Assembly (NCBI GenBank): GCA_009773415.1
Contig: WSNO01000025.1
Span: 1-36,211, forward strand
Length of the DNA: 36,211 bases
Source: Nitrospirota bacterium
Lineage (GTDB): Bacteria; Nitrospirota; Thermodesulfovibrionia; Thermodesulfovibrionales; Dissulfurispiraceae
Reading direction: 5' to 3'
Shown: positions 545 through 9,785 of the stretch, in pieces
Position numbering within the stretch: the first letter of the stretch is position 1
Layout of the letters: every line of letters starts with the position of its first letter
Notes under the pieces: model-generated
Databases searched by the model: none
Seen by the model: only the letters and a program-made list of their open reading frames with translations
Told to the model about the DNA's origin: nothing
Program-made: the position numbers and the translations under genes

Positions 545-1558
545 CTAAAACAGAATGTCGCGACTTACCTTCTTGACGTCGGACGTTCCGGTCAGCACCA
601 TTGCACCGACCAGCTCATTTTTCATCTTGTTGAGCAACAAGGCCACCCCGTCCCTGCCTCCGCCGAAGGCTCCGACAATGAGAGGACGCCCCACAAGCAC
701 AGCATCGGCGCCGAGGGCCAGAAGCTTCAGCACATCGGCACCGCTCCGCACGCCGCCGTCACACAGGATGGTCACCTTGCCCCTCACCTTCTCCGCTATT
801 GAGGAAAGCACGTCTGCAGCGCCCGGCGTGCAATCGAGAACACGCCCTCCATGATTGGAGACGACAATCGCAGCGGCACCGCATTCGGCGGCAATCTCTG
901 CTTCATCCGGGGTCATAATGCCCTTGACGATGAATGGCAGCGAGGTCGATGAAATCACCTCTTTCAGTTCATTCCTGGTCTTCGGACTGACCGGCTGTCC
1001 TTTCAATGCCATGGTAATCAGGCCGGCGCCGTCAACATCCATTCCGACTGCAAGAGCGCCGATTTCTTCAGCATGACGAATACGTTTAATGATTTCCTCC
1101 TGGCCGCGGGGCTTGATAACCGGCACGCCCTGTCCTCCGGCCGCCTTGACAGCCTTGCAGCCCCCATCATACATAACAGGATCAGCACCGTCCCCAATCA
1201 TGCCGAGCGAACCGGCCTGAAGGGCTCCTCCAATCCAGACATCGGCAAAGGCTTCTTCCGCCATCTTTCCGCCCATGTTATAGGAGACGCCGGTAATCGG
1301 CGCAGCGAGAATAGGCATTGCCAGCGACTGTCCCCAGAGTGAAAGCGTTGTATCGGTTGTTCTCACGCTGTGCAGCGTTCTCAGGTTGAAGTGATGACGG
1401 GCAAGCGCTTCGAGATTGCCCTTGAAGGCGCTTCCTGTTCCGGTGCCTCCCATGCCGGGAACCTCCCCTGCACAGGCTCGTCCATCGCAGACCGGGCAGA
1501 CCCGGCAATACGGCTGCAGCTGCTCTTTCGCAGTTTTTTTAATTGTTGCAAGATCCAT
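545..1558 (-). CDS. FMN-dependent alpha-hydroxy-acid dehydrogenase with Cys-rich N-terminus
   Basis: The 337-residue protein belongs to the FMN-dependent alpha-hydroxy-acid dehydrogenase family (lactate/glycolate oxidase type), which oxidises 2-hydroxy acids to 2-keto acids. The TIM-barrel motifs are present: the catalytic His/Arg segment SNHGGRVLDCTPGAADVL, and the phosphate-binding segment DGGVRSGADVLKLLALGADA followed by VGRPL. Residues 18-29 carry four cysteines (C18, C21, C24, C29; CxxCxxCxxxxC), absent from classical LldD or glycolate oxidase but seen in a bacterial subfamily annotated as alpha-hydroxy-acid oxidizing protein. It has no signal peptide or membrane segment, so it should be cytoplasmic. 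I chose ATG 1558 because an AGGAGA site lies just upstream; an upstream ATG at 1618 lacks one. It is transcribed alone or after the binding protein, with a hairpin in between. The exact substrate is not readable; L-lactate is plausible given the permease and oxidase nearby. Confidence 0.85.
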   Translation of the reverse strand: MDLATIKKTAKEQLQPYCRVCPVCDGRACAGEVPGMGGTGTGSAFKGNLEALARHHFNLRTLHSVRTTDTTLSLWGQSLAMPILAAPITGVSYNMGGKMAEEAFADVWIGGALQAGSLGMIGDGADPVMYDGGCKAVKAAGGQGVPVIKPRGQEEIIKRIRHAEEIGALAVGMDVDGAGLITMALKGQPVSPKTRNELKEVISSTSLPFIVKGIMTPDEAEIAAECGAAAIVVSNHGGRVLDCTPGAADVLSSIAEKVRGKVTILCDGGVRSGADVLKLLALGADAVLVGRPLIVGAFGGGRDGVALLLNKMKNELVGAMVLTGTSDVKKVSRDILF

Positions 1559-1620
1559 AGAAACTTCTCCTGTTCGCAATAAAATCTGTTTCAGCGCGAA
1601 AACGCCCGATTGCGGCATGA

Positions 1621-1691: not shown

Positions 1692-2801
1692 TTAAAGCCG
1701 CTTGTATATGAGGATTGCGGCTCCCATGGTCAGAAGAACCATCAGAAAGCCAACCCCCCAGATGAACGTCCTTGAAACCGCAACGTTCGCACCCGGCTGG
1801 TTCATCACAATGCTTCCCGGCGGAAGTTTTGCGCGGTCAATTTTGAAGCGAGCCATCTGCACATAATCAAACATGTATTTGTTCGGGCTTTCCATGAGCA
1901 CCGGAATAGCATCCGGTGAGGTTCCCCTGAGAACCCGATTCAGCATATCGCCCGCGGCCTTCCCCTGATAGAAGCCTGACGTAAGCATACCGCCGACGAT
2001 GCCATGTTGAAGATTAAAGTCCCACAGACCATACATCGGCACCTTACTGGCATCCGATACCATCTTGGTGCTTTCGCTGAACTCAAAAAAATTGCCGGCT
2101 TTGTCTTTCTGGAAGACGGTTATAAGCACGAGACTGTCGGCGGTGAGACTTGAGACCGTTTCGAGAATCTTGCTCATTTCGATGTCTTCAAGCCAGAGGA
2201 ACTCCACCTTGCCCTGATACTTCGGCATAATCTGATTGAACTTTTCACGAACAACTTTGCCGGTCGTCGTCGTGTCATTCACGACATAGATTTTTTTCGC
2301 GCCGGGATGCAGAGAAATCATCAAATCAAGGGTTGCCTGTACGTCGGCATCTTCATTTACGCCGGTGATGCCCTTCTGCCCGCCGAGCTTTTCCGGAGTA
2401 AACCAGTTGATTCCGGTGAAAATTACCGGGACATTCGGAAACATCTTGTCGCGGTTTCTTCGCAGAAAGCCAAGCGCGTCGTCGTCCGAAACGACAATCG
2501 CGTCGAAATTCACTCCTTTGAATTTTGTTTTGTAGAAATCATCCAGACCCCTCTGATACGTTTCTCCCGGATTCCGTTTTGTATCGAGATAGTCAATGTA
2601 AACCTTTACCTTGCTTGCGTCGATGACCGACATGATTCCTTTTGTAATATCATTTGTCCACTGATAGCCGTCATGATAGGCATTGAGAACAAGAACATTC
2701 TTCTGCTCGGCGGCTGATGCCATTGAGACGAAGACCAGAAGCATCAGAACAAGGCCAAAAATAAATACGCTCCTGCTTTTTCCGGAGATTCCATGAACCA
2801 T
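1692..2801 (-). CDS. ABC-type substrate-binding-like periplasmic sensor with C-terminal membrane anchor
   Basis: The 369-residue protein has a Sec signal peptide (hydrophobic FIFGLVLMLLVFVSMASA, then AEQK) and a periplasmic domain of the ABC_sub_bind type (PF04392-like). Typical fold segments are NVLVLNAYHDGYQWTNDITK, FDAIVVSDDDALGFL, VPVIFTGINWF and GAKKIYVVNDTTTTGK. Unlike soluble binding proteins it ends in one predicted transmembrane helix (WGVGFLMVLLTMGAAILIY) followed only by KRL. That layout is the sensory half of a membrane receptor with no cytoplasmic output domain. I chose ATG 2801, preceded by AAGGAAAGGGG; the longer reading from 2876 has no site and would bury the signal peptide. 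The chemoreceptor gene lies 132 bp upstream on the same strand. No ABC permease or ATPase genes are nearby, so a sensing role is more likely than transport. The ligand is unknown. Confidence 0.75.
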   Translation of the reverse strand: MVHGISGKSRSVFIFGLVLMLLVFVSMASAAEQKNVLVLNAYHDGYQWTNDITKGIMSVIDASKVKVYIDYLDTKRNPGETYQRGLDDFYKTKFKGVNFDAIVVSDDDALGFLRRNRDKMFPNVPVIFTGINWFTPEKLGGQKGITGVNEDADVQATLDLMISLHPGAKKIYVVNDTTTTGKVVREKFNQIMPKYQGKVEFLWLEDIEMSKILETVSSLTADSLVLITVFQKDKAGNFFEFSESTKMVSDASKVPMYGLWDFNLQHGIVGGMLTSGFYQGKAAGDMLNRVLRGTSPDAIPVLMESPNKYMFDYVQMARFKIDRAKLPPGSIVMNQPGANVAVSRTFIWGVGFLMVLLTMGAAILIYKRL

Positions 2802-2933
2802 TGGCAACCCCTTTCCTTCTCTTAAATCTGCAGTCGTTGCATGCCCGTGAAACGAAGCAGAATTAGTATACTCCATATGATGTCAAGAATCCACAAATTT
2901 CCCGGGGACCGCTTGTCTCAGGAGCCAGACAAG

Positions 2934-4703
2934 TTATTGCAAAAATCGCTCCGGCTTGTATCCGGTAACAATCGCTCCCCAGTGTCGGCCGTTCACATGG
3001 ATCGGCATGGAGAGATCGTTCAGAATCTCTCCGGTGTCACGCATGTAGGTCTGAAACAGGAACGGTTGTGTGTTTTTCGAACGCCTCTTTTCGGTTTCGA
3101 CATTGAAAAAAATGCGCTGATGGCGGCTATTCAGAAGATCAACTTTCGGATCCCCGGTCATCGCATCTCTCGCGCCTTTGTGATGAATCGTCAGATAGCC
3201 GTTTGTATCGAGCGGCACGGCATAAATTGAATTCAGATCTGCTCGCGCTTCATCAACCAGCTGCGCAAATTCGTGATAAAAGATATTCGCATACTCAGTC
3301 AGGTACTTTTGCGGATTCGTATTCGGCACCGGCTTGTAGTTTTGATCGAAGACATTCACGCCGCGGTTCGCAATTTCCAGAATCTTGTTCTGCATGATAT
3401 CCCGCCACTTCCCGACTTTATCCACCGTTGCCTCAAGCTCATTATTGCCGGTCTTGAAGTGAGACACCACCTCCAGCAGTTTTTCGGTTGCGCGGTTCAT
3501 ATTCTGGGAGAAGCCTTTCGATTCATCGAGACGACCGGCGACCTCTCCGCTCAGACCGTGAATATCCTGCACCTGCCGGTGAATCTCGGCATTTGTCATG
3601 GAAAGCTCTTCAATGGCTGATGCGGTACCGGAAAGCTGCATGCTGTTCTGTTCAAAATCATGAACGAGTGTGTCGAAGTGCTGTGAGGTGCGGTCAATCG
3701 TCCCCTCGGCCTGCTTCATGTTGTCATTGATGCCGCCAATCTCCTGGGAGGTCTGACGCACTTGCTTGAGCATCTCGTTGATATTTTGAGAAATCTCTTC
3801 TGTCGCATTCTTGACGCGCTCAGCAAGTTTCCGCACCTCGTCTGCAACGACCGAAAAACCCCGGCCCGCATCGCCTGCGCGGGCCGCCTCAATCGCCGCA
3901 TTCAGGGCCAGCAGGTTGGTCTGGTCGGAAATGTCCTCAATCAGCCGGACAATGTCCTTGATGCGCTCTGACTTCTTGTTCAGGTCGGAAACCGTCTCTG
4001 TAAATGCGGCAAGCCGGTCGGTTGTGGTCCTGATGCTTGCCGTGATGCCGCCGAGTTCTTCGCGGGCGCCGCGGGCGGTTTCAAGATGTTCGGCCGTTGT
4101 CAGTGAAATATGCTGCGTAGTCTGCGATACATCATTGACTGCCTGAGTAATGTCCCCGCTCGTGCGGAAGATAATGTCGGCAAGTTCCCCCTGCCGTCTG
4201 GCGCTCTCGGATGAGACGGTTGTAAGCTTTGCGGTGCGCGTCGAGTCGACAGCAATAGAAAGTCCGAGTTGTTTTGACTCGGCGAGTATCCGCCGAATGG
4301 AACCGGCAAATTCATTAAAGCTGTTTGCAAGCTGACCTATCTCGTCATGCGTATGAAGATGAATATCCTGCGAAAAATCGCCGCTTTTAAGTGTATCTGA
4401 TATCTTCTGCAGCGAGTCCCGCACGGAAAACCTGACCATGTAATAGGCCATCAGGCCGAAAGCCGATGCGAGAACCGGCAGAACAATGGAGAGTGTTTGT
4501 AGCAGAGACATGGCGCCCAGCGCGCTCTCCTTCGCGGCTATGTCAAGCGAAGAAGCGCTGATGACATCCCTCAGAGAACCGCCATGCAGCCAGATAAAGC
4601 CGGACAAGATCAGGAGCAATAACCATATGGGAGCGATACAGCCGAGAATTTTTTTCGTAAACGTATTAAATAGCGCCTTTTCCAACAAGTTCACTGCGCT
4701 CAT
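2934..4703 (-). CDS. Methyl-accepting chemotaxis protein with minimal ectodomain and C-terminal sensor domain
   Basis: The 589-residue chemoreceptor has two transmembrane helices (about residues 19-39 and 71-92) separated by only about 30 periplasmic residues. These are followed by a HAMP-like region (about 93-145) and a long coiled-coil signalling domain. The conserved hairpin tip is clear ([19 protein letters not shown], then [17 protein letters not shown]), which binds CheA and CheW. After the signalling domain, residues about 470-589 form an extra cytoplasmic domain with a W-[RK] start, a [17 protein letters not shown] segment and the ending [21 protein letters not shown]. This C-terminal Cache/PAS-like module is known from many environmental MCPs. 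ATG 4703 has a GGAGG site at good spacing. Normal ligand sensing through a periplasmic domain seems impossible, so input must come through the C-terminal domain or through a partner such as the adjacent anchored binding protein. Confidence 0.9.
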
Positions 4704-4914: not shown

Positions 4915-4945
4915 AAAAAACGGGCGGCGAAACGGCCGCCGCCCG
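4915..4945 (-). terminator. Rho-independent terminator of the glcD-glcF transcript
   Basis: CGGGCGGCG (4921-4929) and CGCCGCCCG (4937-4945) form a perfect 9-bp GC stem with a 7-nt loop. On the minus strand it is followed by six T residues (4915-4920). It begins about 30 bp after the glcF stop codon. Confidence 0.85.
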
Positions 4946-4973: not shown

Positions 4974-6302
4974 CTACTCTTTTTTGCCGTCTTTCTTTTC
5001 TTTCCGATACGACTCGGCTAGCAGCGAGATGTAATGCGTGCCTTTCTGCCCCTTGCCGAACTGCTCAATGCCGTCGATAATCTGAATCAGGCACCCCGGA
5101 CAGGCGGTAACCGCCATATCAGCCTTCGTCTTGTTGATGTCCTCGATCTTCCGTTTCAGAATCCCGGTCGAAGTATCATAATGTGTCAGGTTGTACGTGC
5201 CTCCGCTGCCGCAGCAGGCATCCGGCTTTGACATTTCCCTGAACGTCACGCCCGGGATGCTCTTGATGATCTCGCGCGGCTCGCTGAATACCTTCATCGT
5301 CTTCTTCAGATGGCAGGAATCATGATAGGTGACCGTTGCATTGACCTCGCCTTCCGGCTTTCTGAAGTCGATCTTCTTCATAAGGAACGTCGAAATCTCT
5401 ATGCTCTTTCCAGACCACTTCTCGACCTTGTCCGCATATGCCGCATCGCCCTTCAGCATCTCTTTGTATTCATGCGACAGTGTCGACGCGCAGGAGCCGC
5501 AACCGAAAATGACGTAGTCGGCGTTGGTCTTGTCGAGTGCGTCAAGATTCGCCTTTGCCATCTCGCGTGCAGTCTTCACATCGCCGTGCGCAAATACTGC
5601 AACACCGCAGCAGTGCTGATCCCTCGGAATAACAACATTGACATCGTTCTTCTTCAGAACGGTTACTATGTCCTTGCCGAACTGCGGATAAATGTAGTTG
5701 ATGGAACAGCCGGTGAAAAATGCAACAGTTGCCTTCGGATTCTTGACGGTCACTTTCTCCGGCGCCTGGCTCCGAAACGGCGTTGCACTAAGCTCAGGCA
5801 GAACACGCTTTCGGTCAAGAATGCCGACCGGGAAGCGGAGCTGACGGCCCTGCCCGCTCGGAATCTGCTTCATGAACAGGCCCTGAAAAGCTCCGCCGGC
5901 CCGCATGCCGAGGTCAAACAGAGGCTTGTAGTTATGAAGCAGCTTGAAGATATTCTTTTTGACCGGATGCAGGCCCTTTTTCTTTACTATTGCGGCGCGG
6001 AGGGCGAAGATAATCTTGTCGAGATTCACCTTCGGCGGGCAGTTCTGCATGCATGACTTGCAGACGAGACAGTTGAAAATATGCTCGTACATGTCCGGAT
6101 CGTCGATGTCGAGCTTGCCGTCTATAATAGCCTGCGCAAGCGCAATCTTGCCGCGGGCAACGCCCGCCTCGGTCTTTTCGGTGATAAACACCGGACAGAC
6201 CGCCATACAGTTGCCGCAGCGCATGCACTGCTCGAGCTCCTTCTCGATGAGCTTGAACTCGTCGTAAATGGTTTCTTCGTTCAGTTCAGTTGCCGTGGAC
6301 AT
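4974..6302 (-). CDS. glcF: GlcF-type (Fe-S) subunit of glycolate/D-lactate oxidase
   Basis: The 442-residue protein is the iron-sulfur partner of an FAD 2-hydroxy-acid dehydrogenase, passing electrons to a membrane or soluble acceptor. The N-terminus has two 4Fe-4S motifs, CMRCGNCMAVCP (about residues 26-37) and CLVCKSCMQNCP. Two CCG (cysteine-rich) domains follow: the first has FFTGCSINYIYP and later HCCGVAVFAHGD; the second has SCHLKKTMKVF, ACCGSGGTYN and CPGCLIQI. The tail is Lys-rich. There is no membrane helix. The start at 6302 lies 3 bp after the stop of the FAD subunit gene, with GAGGTG at good distance, so the two are translated together. Glycolate and D-lactate oxidases of this class cannot be told apart from sequence alone; the lactate permease upstream favours D-lactate. 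Confidence 0.88.
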   Translation of the reverse strand: MSTATELNEETIYDEFKLIEKELEQCMRCGNCMAVCPVFITEKTEAGVARGKIALAQAIIDGKLDIDDPDMYEHIFNCLVCKSCMQNCPPKVNLDKIIFALRAAIVKKKGLHPVKKNIFKLLHNYKPLFDLGMRAGGAFQGLFMKQIPSGQGRQLRFPVGILDRKRVLPELSATPFRSQAPEKVTVKNPKATVAFFTGCSINYIYPQFGKDIVTVLKKNDVNVVIPRDQHCCGVAVFAHGDVKTAREMAKANLDALDKTNADYVIFGCGSCASTLSHEYKEMLKGDAAYADKVEKWSGKSIEISTFLMKKIDFRKPEGEVNATVTYHDSCHLKKTMKVFSEPREIIKSIPGVTFREMSKPDACCGSGGTYNLTHYDTSTGILKRKIEDINKTKADMAVTACPGCLIQIIDGIEQFGKGQKGTHYISLLAESYRKEKKDGKKE

Positions 6303-6305
6303 GCC

Positions 6306-7700
6306 CTACACCTCTTTCGCCGGTACCATTTTGCCCGGATTCATGATGCCCTTCGGGTCAAATGCATTCTTGATGGTCCTCATCATGTCAAGACCGCTCT
6401 GACCGAGTTCATCCTTGAGATAGGCCATCTTTGCTATGCCGATCCCGTGCTCCCCTGAAAGGGTGCCGCCCATGCTGAGCGCTGCGGCAAAGATCTCATC
6501 GACCGCCCTGTGTACGCGCTCCATCTCTTCCTTGTTCTTTGCATCGGCGAGAATCGTGGGGTGAAGGTTGCCGTCACCGGCGTGGCCGAAGGTGCCGATG
6601 TTGAGCTGGTACTTTTCGCCAATCTTCTGAATCTCCATAAGCATGTCGGTCAGGCGTGAACGCGGAACGGTTGCGTCCTCAAGAACAGTGGTCGGGCTGA
6701 GCTGCGCCAGTGCCGGCAGTGCCGCGCGGCGGGCTGCCCAGAGCTTGTCTCTTTCCGTATCCGTTTCGGCCACCCTCAGTTCCCCACTATTCTTTTTCAC
6801 AACTTCGACCACCGCGGCTGCCTCTGCGTCAACAGCATCCTTTGCCATGCCGTCAACTTCTATCAATAGCAGCGCTGCATACCCGGTTGGCAAGCCGACC
6901 TTCGCATAATTCTCGACGGTCTCCATAGTCTTGGCATCCATGATTTCAAGGGTAGCAGGAATGACATGCGCCTTGATAATGCCCTGAACCGTGTTGCCTG
7001 CATCAGCGAGATTCTTGTAGAGGGCAAGCATCGTCTTTCTAAACTTCGGCGCCGGAATAAGCTTAGCGGTGATTTCGGTCACCATACCGAGCGTGCCTTC
7101 AGAGCCGACAAACAGCGCAGCAAAGTCGTATGCAGTGACGTTCTTCACCGTTTTACCGCCGAACTTCACGAGATCGCCATTCGGAAGGACAACCTGCATG
7201 CCCATGACATAATGCTTGGTAACGCCGTACTTCAGCCCACGGAGACCGCCCGCACACTCCGCCACCGTTCCTGCCATAGTCGCAGTAGCGACCGTACCGG
7301 GGTCCGGCGGGTAGATGAGGCCGTGTGCGGCAACCGCCGAGTTCAGATCCGCCACAATCACACCGGCCTGCACCGTCGCGGTGAGGTTGTCGGCATCAAC
7401 TTCCAGAATCTTGTCCATGCGCTGCACCCCGAGCACAATACCTTTCTTGAGCGGGATCGTACCGCCGCTAAGGTTCGTTCCGGAGCCGCGCGGATAGATT
7501 GGCGTGCTGGTTTCATTCGCCAGCTTTACAATCTGCACCACCTCTTCGGTGGTAGCGGGAAGTACCACCACATCCGGCATCTCAGTCTGCGTATCCGCCG
7601 TTGCGTCATAACTGTAAGAGATGAGATCCGCCTTTTTCGTCAACACATTTTTTTCACCAACGATCTTTTCGAGCCGTTCAATGACTGCCTTATCCAACAT
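6306..7700 (-). CDS. glcD: GlcD-type FAD-linked 2-hydroxy-acid dehydrogenase subunit
   Basis: The 464-residue flavoprotein is of the GlcD/D-lactate dehydrogenase (VAO/PCMH) family. The FAD-binding PCMH region is marked by VVLPATTEEVVQIVKLANE, YPRGSGTNLSGGTIPLKKGI and PPDPGTVATATMAGTVAECA. The C-terminal FAD-oxidase domain contains GTFGHAGDGNLHPTILAD, with the conserved His residues near the flavin, and SGEHGIGIAKM. It oxidises D-lactate or glycolate and hands electrons to the GlcF subunit encoded next. ATG 7700 is preceded by AAAGGAGAG. The upstream permease gene ends 154 bp before it, with a GC-rich hairpin in between, so it may be partly uncoupled from the permease. Confidence 0.9.
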   Translation of the reverse strand: MLDKAVIERLEKIVGEKNVLTKKADLISYSYDATADTQTEMPDVVVLPATTEEVVQIVKLANETSTPIYPRGSGTNLSGGTIPLKKGIVLGVQRMDKILEVDADNLTATVQAGVIVADLNSAVAAHGLIYPPDPGTVATATMAGTVAECAGGLRGLKYGVTKHYVMGMQVVLPNGDLVKFGGKTVKNVTAYDFAALFVGSEGTLGMVTEITAKLIPAPKFRKTMLALYKNLADAGNTVQGIIKAHVIPATLEIMDAKTMETVENYAKVGLPTGYAALLLIEVDGMAKDAVDAEAAAVVEVVKKNSGELRVAETDTERDKLWAARRAALPALAQLSPTTVLEDATVPRSRLTDMLMEIQKIGEKYQLNIGTFGHAGDGNLHPTILADAKNKEEMERVHRAVDEIFAAALSMGGTLSGEHGIGIAKMAYLKDELGQSGLDMMRTIKNAFDPKGIMNPGKMVPAKEV

Positions 7701-7823
7701 TCTGCTCTCCTTTCTCCATACTCTTTTATTTATGTTATCGGTCTCTATTAAGGCCATCGCCTGTAATATGCATCATCATGATTTCTGCTGAGAGGACTCT
7801 GTCTTTCGTGCGTCAAGAAATCA

Positions 7824-7854: not shown

Positions 7855-9672
7855 CTAGTGGAAATGAGCCTTATCCTTACCAGCCGCTACTTTAATCGGG
7901 CCGGCGCCTGCAATGCGGGAAGCAATCGTAACAATAAAAATCAATACGATGCCGCCGACAATATACATATAGCCTTCTTGAATGGTCGCTGCCTTCTTAG
8001 CTGCTGCTGCTGCAGCATCGACAACAGGCTTGGGGGCTCCTGCAATAATCTTTTCATACGCAGGAACCATCCAGGGGAAAACATATGCCCACAGGTAATG
8101 CATGATCCCGATGAGTGTCGCAAGAATGATCGAGTGGATCACGGTAAAGCGGAAGATATCGCCCTCTCTGCCTACCATTCCCGTGGCAGCGGTTGCTACC
8201 GAAATCGACTGCGGGGAGATCATCTTGCCGCAGACGCCGCCGCAGGTGTTTGCCGACATGGTGATAACCGGGTCAATGCCGATTTTCTCAGCGGTAACAT
8301 ATTGCAGCTTGCCGAAGATCGCATTCGCAGAGGTGTCGGAACCGGTCATGAAAACGCCGAGCCAGCCGATAAATGCGGCAAAGAACGGGAATGCGGAACC
8401 AGAAGCTGCAAACGCTGTGCCGAGCGTGATGGCTGCGCCGGAGAAGTTCATGATGAATGCAAAGCCGAGAATGGTGGCAATGGTATAGATCGGCCACTTG
8501 AGCTGCTTAAAGGTGCCGCCTGCCGCCTTCAGCGCGGTCTGCATCGATGCGCCCATAACCGGAATAGAGAAGAACCACGCAAAGAGTATTGCGGTGCCTG
8601 CCGCGCTCAGGAAGTTGAAGTTATACACTGCCGGAACCTGCTTCCCGAGGTAGTTGATGACCATGTTGTGGAGGTAGGGATTGGTCCATTTGTAGAAGAA
8701 GATGTGCTCAAGTGCGGCCTTGGCAGGCTTAATGCCCCACACTGCCACAAAGAGAGAGAGAATGATGAACGGCGCCCATGCGCGAAACACCTGGCCGCCG
8801 GTGTACATGAGTTGTGCCTTGCCCTCGCTCTTCGGCTCGTTCGGGAATCTCCAGGTCTCCTTCGGACTCCAGAACTTCAGGAACGCGACGGTGCAGACTA
8901 TCGAGAAGAGTGCGGCGATGATATCGGGAAGCATCGGGCCGAGATAGTTTGAAGACCAGAACTGGGCAATAGCAAATGAGCCGCCCGAAACAAAACATGC
9001 CGGCCATACTTCCAGACCCTTTTTCCAGCCTGACATGAGAACCGTCAGGTACAGAGGAACAAGACAGCTCAGAAACGGCAGGGTGCGGCCGACCATCTGG
9101 CTCAGCGCCATTTCGTCAACGCCAGAAACCGCCGCGCCGACGATAACCGGAAGACCGATGGCGCCATAGGCGACCGGCGCGGTGTTCGCCAGAAGGCAGA
9201 TGCCTGCCGCATAGAGCGGGTTGAAACCGAGACCGACAAGCATTGCGCAGGTCATTGCGACCGGGGTGCCGAACCCTGCGGCACCTTCGATGAATGCACC
9301 GAACGAGAACGCAATCAGAAGGGCCTGCATACGGCGGTCGTCAGTAATCGAAGCCAGTGAGTTCTTTATGACTTCGAATTGGCCGGTTGCGACGGACATA
9401 TTGTAAATAAAAAGGGCCGTGATGACGATCCAGCAGACAGGGAAAAGTCCGAACAGAGCTCCCTGAAAGGTTGCCGCCAGTGCATACTGAGTTGGCATGC
9501 CGTAAAAGAAAATTGCGATGAGGACAGCAAGCGAAGTTGCGATGGTTGCAGCAATGTGTCCCTTCATCTTCAATCCTGCAAGCGCAATAAAAAGAAAGAA
9601 GATCGGAATAGCTGCGACAAATGCCGAAAGGCCGATAGAGCCAAGCGGGTCGATATTCATCGTCCAAGTCAT
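7855..9672 (-). CDS. lctP: L-lactate permease family transporter
   Basis: The 605-residue membrane protein belongs to the lactate permease (LctP/LldP) family, which takes up lactate, and often glycolate, with protons. It shows the usual many hydrophobic helices, the family segments GAFIEGAAGFGTPVAMTCAM, ANTAPVAYGAIGLPVIVGA, GSDTSANAIFGKLQ and NTCGGVCGKMISPQSISVA, and a final helix (YIVGGIVLIFIVTIASRIA). A stretch rich in Ala and Lys (about residues 550-570) precedes the last helix and makes it somewhat longer than typical members of about 550. I chose ATG 9672 after GGGAGGG; a longer reading to 9735 has no clear site. The downstream glcDF genes fit a lactate uptake and oxidation role. Confidence 0.92.
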   Translation of the reverse strand: MTWTMNIDPLGSIGLSAFVAAIPIFFLFIALAGLKMKGHIAATIATSLAVLIAIFFYGMPTQYALAATFQGALFGLFPVCWIVITALFIYNMSVATGQFEVIKNSLASITDDRRMQALLIAFSFGAFIEGAAGFGTPVAMTCAMLVGLGFNPLYAAGICLLANTAPVAYGAIGLPVIVGAAVSGVDEMALSQMVGRTLPFLSCLVPLYLTVLMSGWKKGLEVWPACFVSGGSFAIAQFWSSNYLGPMLPDIIAALFSIVCTVAFLKFWSPKETWRFPNEPKSEGKAQLMYTGGQVFRAWAPFIILSLFVAVWGIKPAKAALEHIFFYKWTNPYLHNMVINYLGKQVPAVYNFNFLSAAGTAILFAWFFSIPVMGASMQTALKAAGGTFKQLKWPIYTIATILGFAFIMNFSGAAITLGTAFAASGSAFPFFAAFIGWLGVFMTGSDTSANAIFGKLQYVTAEKIGIDPVITMSANTCGGVCGKMISPQSISVATAATGMVGREGDIFRFTVIHSIILATLIGIMHYLWAYVFPWMVPAYEKIIAGAPKPVVDAAAAAAKKAATIQEGYMYIVGGIVLIFIVTIASRIAGAGPIKVAAGKDKAHFH

Positions 9673-9785
9673 GAGTGTTATTTCCCTCCCAAAAAAAAGT
9701 TTAATTGCAATAATCAATGCTGAAGAGTGCTGCAAACTTCACCGGTATCAACTGCATTTCTGATCTGCTGTTCCGCCACCTCCTT

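Follow-up and report, generated by a model that had tools for sequence, protein, structure and literature searches.

The locus described here raises the question whether one chemoreceptor can be divided between two polypeptides. On the minus strand of the window, which is the whole stretch of 36,211 nucleotides analysed, a gene for an MCP is followed by one for a binding protein, and the original prediction was that the two products equal a single receptor assembled through its membrane helices, with a ligand suggested by nearby lactate oxidation genes. The description of the parts stood up. About 30 residues had been expected between the two membrane helices of the MCP, and hydropathy gives 29; the neighbour is, as foreseen, a periplasmic binding domain (PF04392) that ends in a single membrane helix (residues 347-365) and a short tail, YKRL. 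The lactate oxidation genes were likewise found on the same strand, as those for a permease, GlcD-like and GlcF-like subunits and an FMN-dependent alpha-hydroxyacid dehydrogenase. We show herein that the MCP is a member of a widespread chemoreceptor family, so far without a name or characterisation, and we weigh what the binding protein may add to it.

The two genes and their surroundings

The features of the locus are as follows.

7855-9735, minus strand: L-lactate permease family, context, upstream of the pair (PF02652, 5.2e-178)
6306-7757, minus strand: GlcD-like FAD subunit, context, upstream (TIGR00387, 4.5e-149, below its cut-off)
4974-6302, minus strand: GlcF-like iron-sulphur subunit, context, upstream (CCG, 1.7e-40)
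4921-4945, minus strand: terminator-like stem-loop at the boundary of the lactate genes and the MCP gene (the sister species has a comparable stem at this position)
2934-4703, minus strand: MCP, 589 aa, short-loop chemoreceptor that carries a sensor-like domain at its C-terminus (Pfam MCPsignal 1.2e-40, HAMP 1.4e-9)
4593-4649, minus strand: MCP membrane helix 1, residues 19-37 (hydropathy)
4506-4592, minus strand: 29-residue inter-helix segment of the MCP, predicted periplasmic (hydropathy)
4449-4505, minus strand: MCP membrane helix 2, residues 67-85 (hydropathy)
4293-4409, minus strand: MCP HAMP domain, residues 99-137 (Pfam)
3555-4013, minus strand: MCP signalling domain (MCPsignal), residues 231-383 (Pfam)
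2937-3416, minus strand: MCP C-terminal Cache-like domain, with no Pfam family and a predicted cytoplasmic location (alignment, AlphaFold2, Foldseek, VIA)
2865-2893, minus strand: promoter-like TGGATT-17 nt-TATACT, conserved, in the intergenic stretch from the MCP gene to the binding-protein gene (motif and spacing as in the sister species)
1692-2801, minus strand: membrane-anchored PF04392 binding protein, 369 aa (Pfam E 1.4e-11; sister orthologue 66% identical)
2709-2801, minus strand: binding-protein signal peptide, residues 1-31 (sequence; in the model, helix 8-26 and then a loop)
1707-1763, minus strand: binding-protein C-terminal membrane helix, residues 347-365, then YKRL and stop (hydropathy; model helix 338-368)
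545-1618, minus strand: FMN-dependent alpha-hydroxyacid dehydrogenase, context, downstream of the pair (PF01070, 2.6e-63)

With MCPsignal, HAMP and two membrane helices, the MCP has the make-up of a transmembrane chemoreceptor, and the genome (2.46 Mb) holds chemotaxis machinery that includes at least six MCPs and six CheW-domain matches. The binding-protein gene starts 132 bases past the MCP stop on the same strand, and 73 bases separate its end from the next gene. Its open reading frame opens at 2876; the ATG at 2801, preceded by GGAAAGGGGTTGCC, is the start that is conserved in the sister species. A putative cleavage site between ASA and AEQ closes the signal-peptide-like residues 1-31. The following domain scores 44.7 bits against ABC_sub_bind (PF04392), for which the curated Pfam cut-off is 25.9, and AlphaFold2 gives a confident binding-protein fold with the terminal helix at 338-368. 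No HisKA/HATPase transmitter is present, the chain stopping four residues past the helix.

The conserved promoter-like motif between the two genes may allow the binding protein to be expressed alone. Terminator-like sequences precede the pair in each of the two species and, in the sister, also follow it, and the stem at 4945-4921 sets the pair apart from the lactate genes. Lactate as the ligand, read from the gene neighbourhood, is a guess.

The comparison drew on one other member of the genus, a Nitrospiraceae MAG, so that the data on the pair come from two species only. The gene order glcD-(glcF)-MCP-binding protein-FMN dehydrogenase is kept there; the sister glcF is masked in the list of open reading frames by a longer antisense frame, and its end is readable in the sequence. 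Both genes are intact in the sister, with 66% identity for the binding protein and 78% for the MCP, and the YKRL end of the anchor is identical. The pair is absent from the other genomes in the family of 31 genomes. Because only two species carry it, co-occurrence of the two genes is statistically near weightless.

Sensor kinases as kin of the binding protein

The same genome encodes four homologues of the binding protein in frames of 736-966 aa, 34-51% identical to it. The three of these that were fully read share with the binding protein a signal peptide, a binding domain and a membrane helix and continue into a kinase-like part, whereas the binding protein carries no cytoplasmic transmitter. 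The closest homologue, at 51%, lies on another contig, and its kinase was confirmed by Pfam. In a quick tree, from which we claim the nesting and not the exact branching order, the binding protein is nested in a group of six with 99% SH-aLRT; the other four members are kinase-type receptors, one of them from a Holophagaceae MAG. The binding protein stops where the kinase part of these relatives would begin. Judged by homology, it is the sensor-plus-helix half of a receptor.

Homologues were sought in 395 Nitrospirota genomes, in 93 genomes from the class to which a Holophagaceae MAG belongs and in 395 from the phylum that includes Desulfopila. About 150 strong homologues were listed, nearly all in long frames, and among these the anchored form without a cytoplasmic domain was met only in this genus. 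No PF04392-MCP fusion was seen among the fetched homologues. Because the missing half was a kinase and no fusion was found, the MCP and the binding protein are not the halves of one former receptor. In some other PF04392-type receptors a PAS domain alone replaces the kinase. Loss of the kinase thus has a precedent among PF04392 receptors, whereas loss of all cytoplasmic parts does not. Within a partial coverage of the literature, no paper on ABC_sub_bind in kinases was found.

Several other arrangements were met during these searches. Short or stand-alone homologues outside the genus were, where inspected, contig-edge cuts or soluble forms without an anchor. In PF04392-type receptors of 461-627 aa (L209, L211, L213, L216, L217 and L219), a conserved Cys-rich tail with the motif PICxxCKK...HSxAxFSHGICPxC replaces the kinase, and a Pfam scan of two Cys-tail receptors without a PAS domain (L216 and L219) gave no match. 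A second, soluble PF04392-like protein of 344-351 aa overlaps the start of a sensor-kinase gene by about 4 bases (L010, L018, L125 and L126), and one PF04392 receptor bears a SpoIIE phosphatase output domain (L138:1468-3804).

Given such kin, the binding protein might serve sensor kinases rather than the MCP, forming mixed dimers with the kinase-borne relative that is 51% identical to it and acting as a kinase-less co-sensor or a dominant damper, its adjacency to the MCP being incidental. Its closest relatives are indeed kinase sensor halves in the same genomes, and it has a promoter-like motif of its own. Nonetheless, the MCP-binding protein order is kept in both species, the kinase gene is far off, and terminator-like stems bracket the pair, and we regard this alternative as unlikely.

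The C-terminal domain and the family of the MCP

The last ~160 residues of the MCP were modelled by AlphaFold2 from an alignment of 42 relatives with a pLDDT of 93.5, as a helix (6-32) followed by a PAS-like sheet. The model thus has the Cache fold with its long N-terminal helix. The top Foldseek matches are the Cache domains of chemoreceptors and kinases, namely Tlp3, CitA, DcuS and DctB, with a probability of 1.0 for the Tlp3, CitA and DcuS domains, and VIA comparison with Cache sensors gives Z 10-12.5 over 120-150 residues. The domain of the described MCP has no match to a curated Cache profile in Pfam; dCache_1 and sCache_3_2 each match weakly in three of the 42 relatives. A profile search of PDB sequences with the domain gave no match. 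From the standard topology of MCPs, the domain would be cytoplasmic. Cache domains lie mainly outside the cell, and just two small families of them were described as being chiefly intracellular (PMC4822843). Within a partial coverage of the literature, no report was found of chemoreceptors whose Cache domain is C-terminal or cytoplasmic. Ligand binding does not follow from a match of modelled folds. Because these residues model as a Cache-like domain, the MCP appears to have a sensor-like domain of its own and is not sensor-less.

When named genomes were scanned with the C-terminal domain, MCP relatives appeared at 61 loci, with inter-helix loops of 5-40 residues. Short-loop relatives without the binding protein occur in Geothrix, Geobacteraceae, Sedimenticola and others, and in Geobacteraceae the MCP gene is flanked by lctP and glcD or adjoins glcD, again with no binding protein. 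At E 1e-10, a search of 22 such genomes found no binding-protein homologue in three Geobacteraceae and one Geothrix. The two genes had been expected to travel together across genomes; at the level of the MCP family they do not. Holophagaceae MCPs form the sister group to the MCP of the pair. Between the two species that carry the pair, the MCP is 90% identical in its signalling part, 87% in its C-terminal domain and 46% in its helix region, and the helix region is 35-44% identical to that of the partner-less Holophagaceae. Being about equally like partner-less kin and the sister, it displays no visible partner-specific change.

In Desulfamplus, the gene of a related MCP is preceded, at a distance of 16 bases, by one for a soluble PF04392 protein (L075:3684-6501), and in Denitrovibrio a PF04392-PAS-GGDEF protein is encoded about 200 bases before another (L081:2566-6510). 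Being just two of 61 loci, they do not amount to a test and only hint that PF04392 proteins and this type of MCP meet repeatedly. In the Geobacteraceae loci L069, L071 and L076, a short-loop MCP with the Cache-like domain lies in or beside lctP, glcD and glcF genes, with no binding protein.

Of the idea of one receptor split in two, what stands is that the genes are adjacent, co-oriented and kept together in the sister, and that the binding protein looks like a sensor-plus-helix half; what falls is the common origin, and also the view of the MCP as a transducer waiting for a sensor. In its strict form, in which the MCP senses nothing itself and all input comes from the anchored binding protein, the idea can still point to the adjacency, the short loop and the membrane anchor, but the Cache-like domain, and the fact that this type of MCP occurs in other phyla unaccompanied by the binding protein, make it quite unlikely.

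A proposed accessory input beside a self-sufficient chemoreceptor

It is very unlikely that the binding protein feeds an importer and that its anchor is only a tether. PF04392 is a family of ABC binding proteins, and the fold resembles those of CD0873 and the Trp-binding 3lft; yet the nearest kin are sensors, the anchor sits at the position expected for the link to a kinase, and, in agreement with the original prediction, no importer permease or ATPase is found among the annotated genes of the window or beside the pair in the sister. A decaying, functionless remnant of a truncated sensor kinase, as the missing transmitter might suggest, is highly improbable, the binding protein being intact, with the same protein end and a conserved start signal, in two species whose synonymous distance is saturated (pS 0.79, pN 0.22). 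Changes in both genes between the species are mostly synonymous, and no dN/dS ratio is given because synonymous sites are saturated.

The explanation that we prefer, and to which we give roughly an even chance, is a self-sufficient MCP to which the detached ectodomain of a sensor kinase has been added, in one genus, as an accessory external input. The MCP would be complete in itself, with a short-loop membrane anchor, HAMP, the signalling hairpin and the cytoplasmic Cache-like domain, which probably reads a metabolite or state inside the cell that is linked to lactate oxidation. The binding protein would be the sensor half of a former sensor kinase, put behind the MCP in this genus and most likely serving it as an external input. 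A ligand would close the binding domain, shift its membrane helix and so push the helix bundle of the MCP, a helix-to-helix signal that would resemble the action of sensory rhodopsin on Htr. More specifically, and only tentatively, since we think it somewhat unlikely, the two polypeptides may form a two-input receptor in which the Cache-like domain senses the interior and the kinase-derived periplasmic binding protein signals purely via membrane-helix contacts. In this genus, the pair may still function as a two-protein receptor.

Among the known systems found, none combines a short-loop MCP that carries a C-terminal sensor-like domain with a neighbouring binding protein that has a membrane helix of its own. 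In Halobacterium, BasB/BasT and CosB/CosT pair a membrane-tethered binding protein with an MCP; they differ from the pair described here in having lipid anchors and full transducers. The bipartite energy-taxis receptor CetA/CetB of Campylobacter and Magnetospirillum (PMC2628428, PMC12442639) also consists of a transducer and a sensor encoded by two adjacent genes, an arrangement met here in two species. However, CetB is a cytoplasmic PAS protein, whereas the sensor here is a binding domain in the periplasm, carried by a separate helix of its own, and the MCP, with its Cache-like domain, is not a CetA-type transducer devoid of a sensor domain. In sensory rhodopsin II/HtrII, a separate membrane protein steers a two-helix transducer via helix contacts (PMC5292967), the mode proposed here; the partner of HtrII is a seven-helix photoreceptor, and the helix contact in our pair is inferred. 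Binding proteins stimulate several types of receptor (PMC9602780), and GlnH/GlnX is another case (PMC9769921), a solute-binding protein being the signal input in each. The former receptors dock the protein on a periplasmic domain, whereas the MCP here offers about 29 residues, and GlnX is not an MCP (PMC9769921).

Should the two proteins act together, they would show how a sensor kinase can lose its kinase part and, through one membrane helix, put its ectodomain at the service of another signalling protein, which would be a simple route for receptor evolution. If the two-input reading is true, one receptor would compare the supply outside with the metabolic state inside. Independently of the pairing, the MCP family, with a predicted cytoplasmic C-terminal Cache-like domain of a fold that is usually extracellular and its presence in the lactate loci of unrelated bacteria, may bear on taxis coupled to metabolism.
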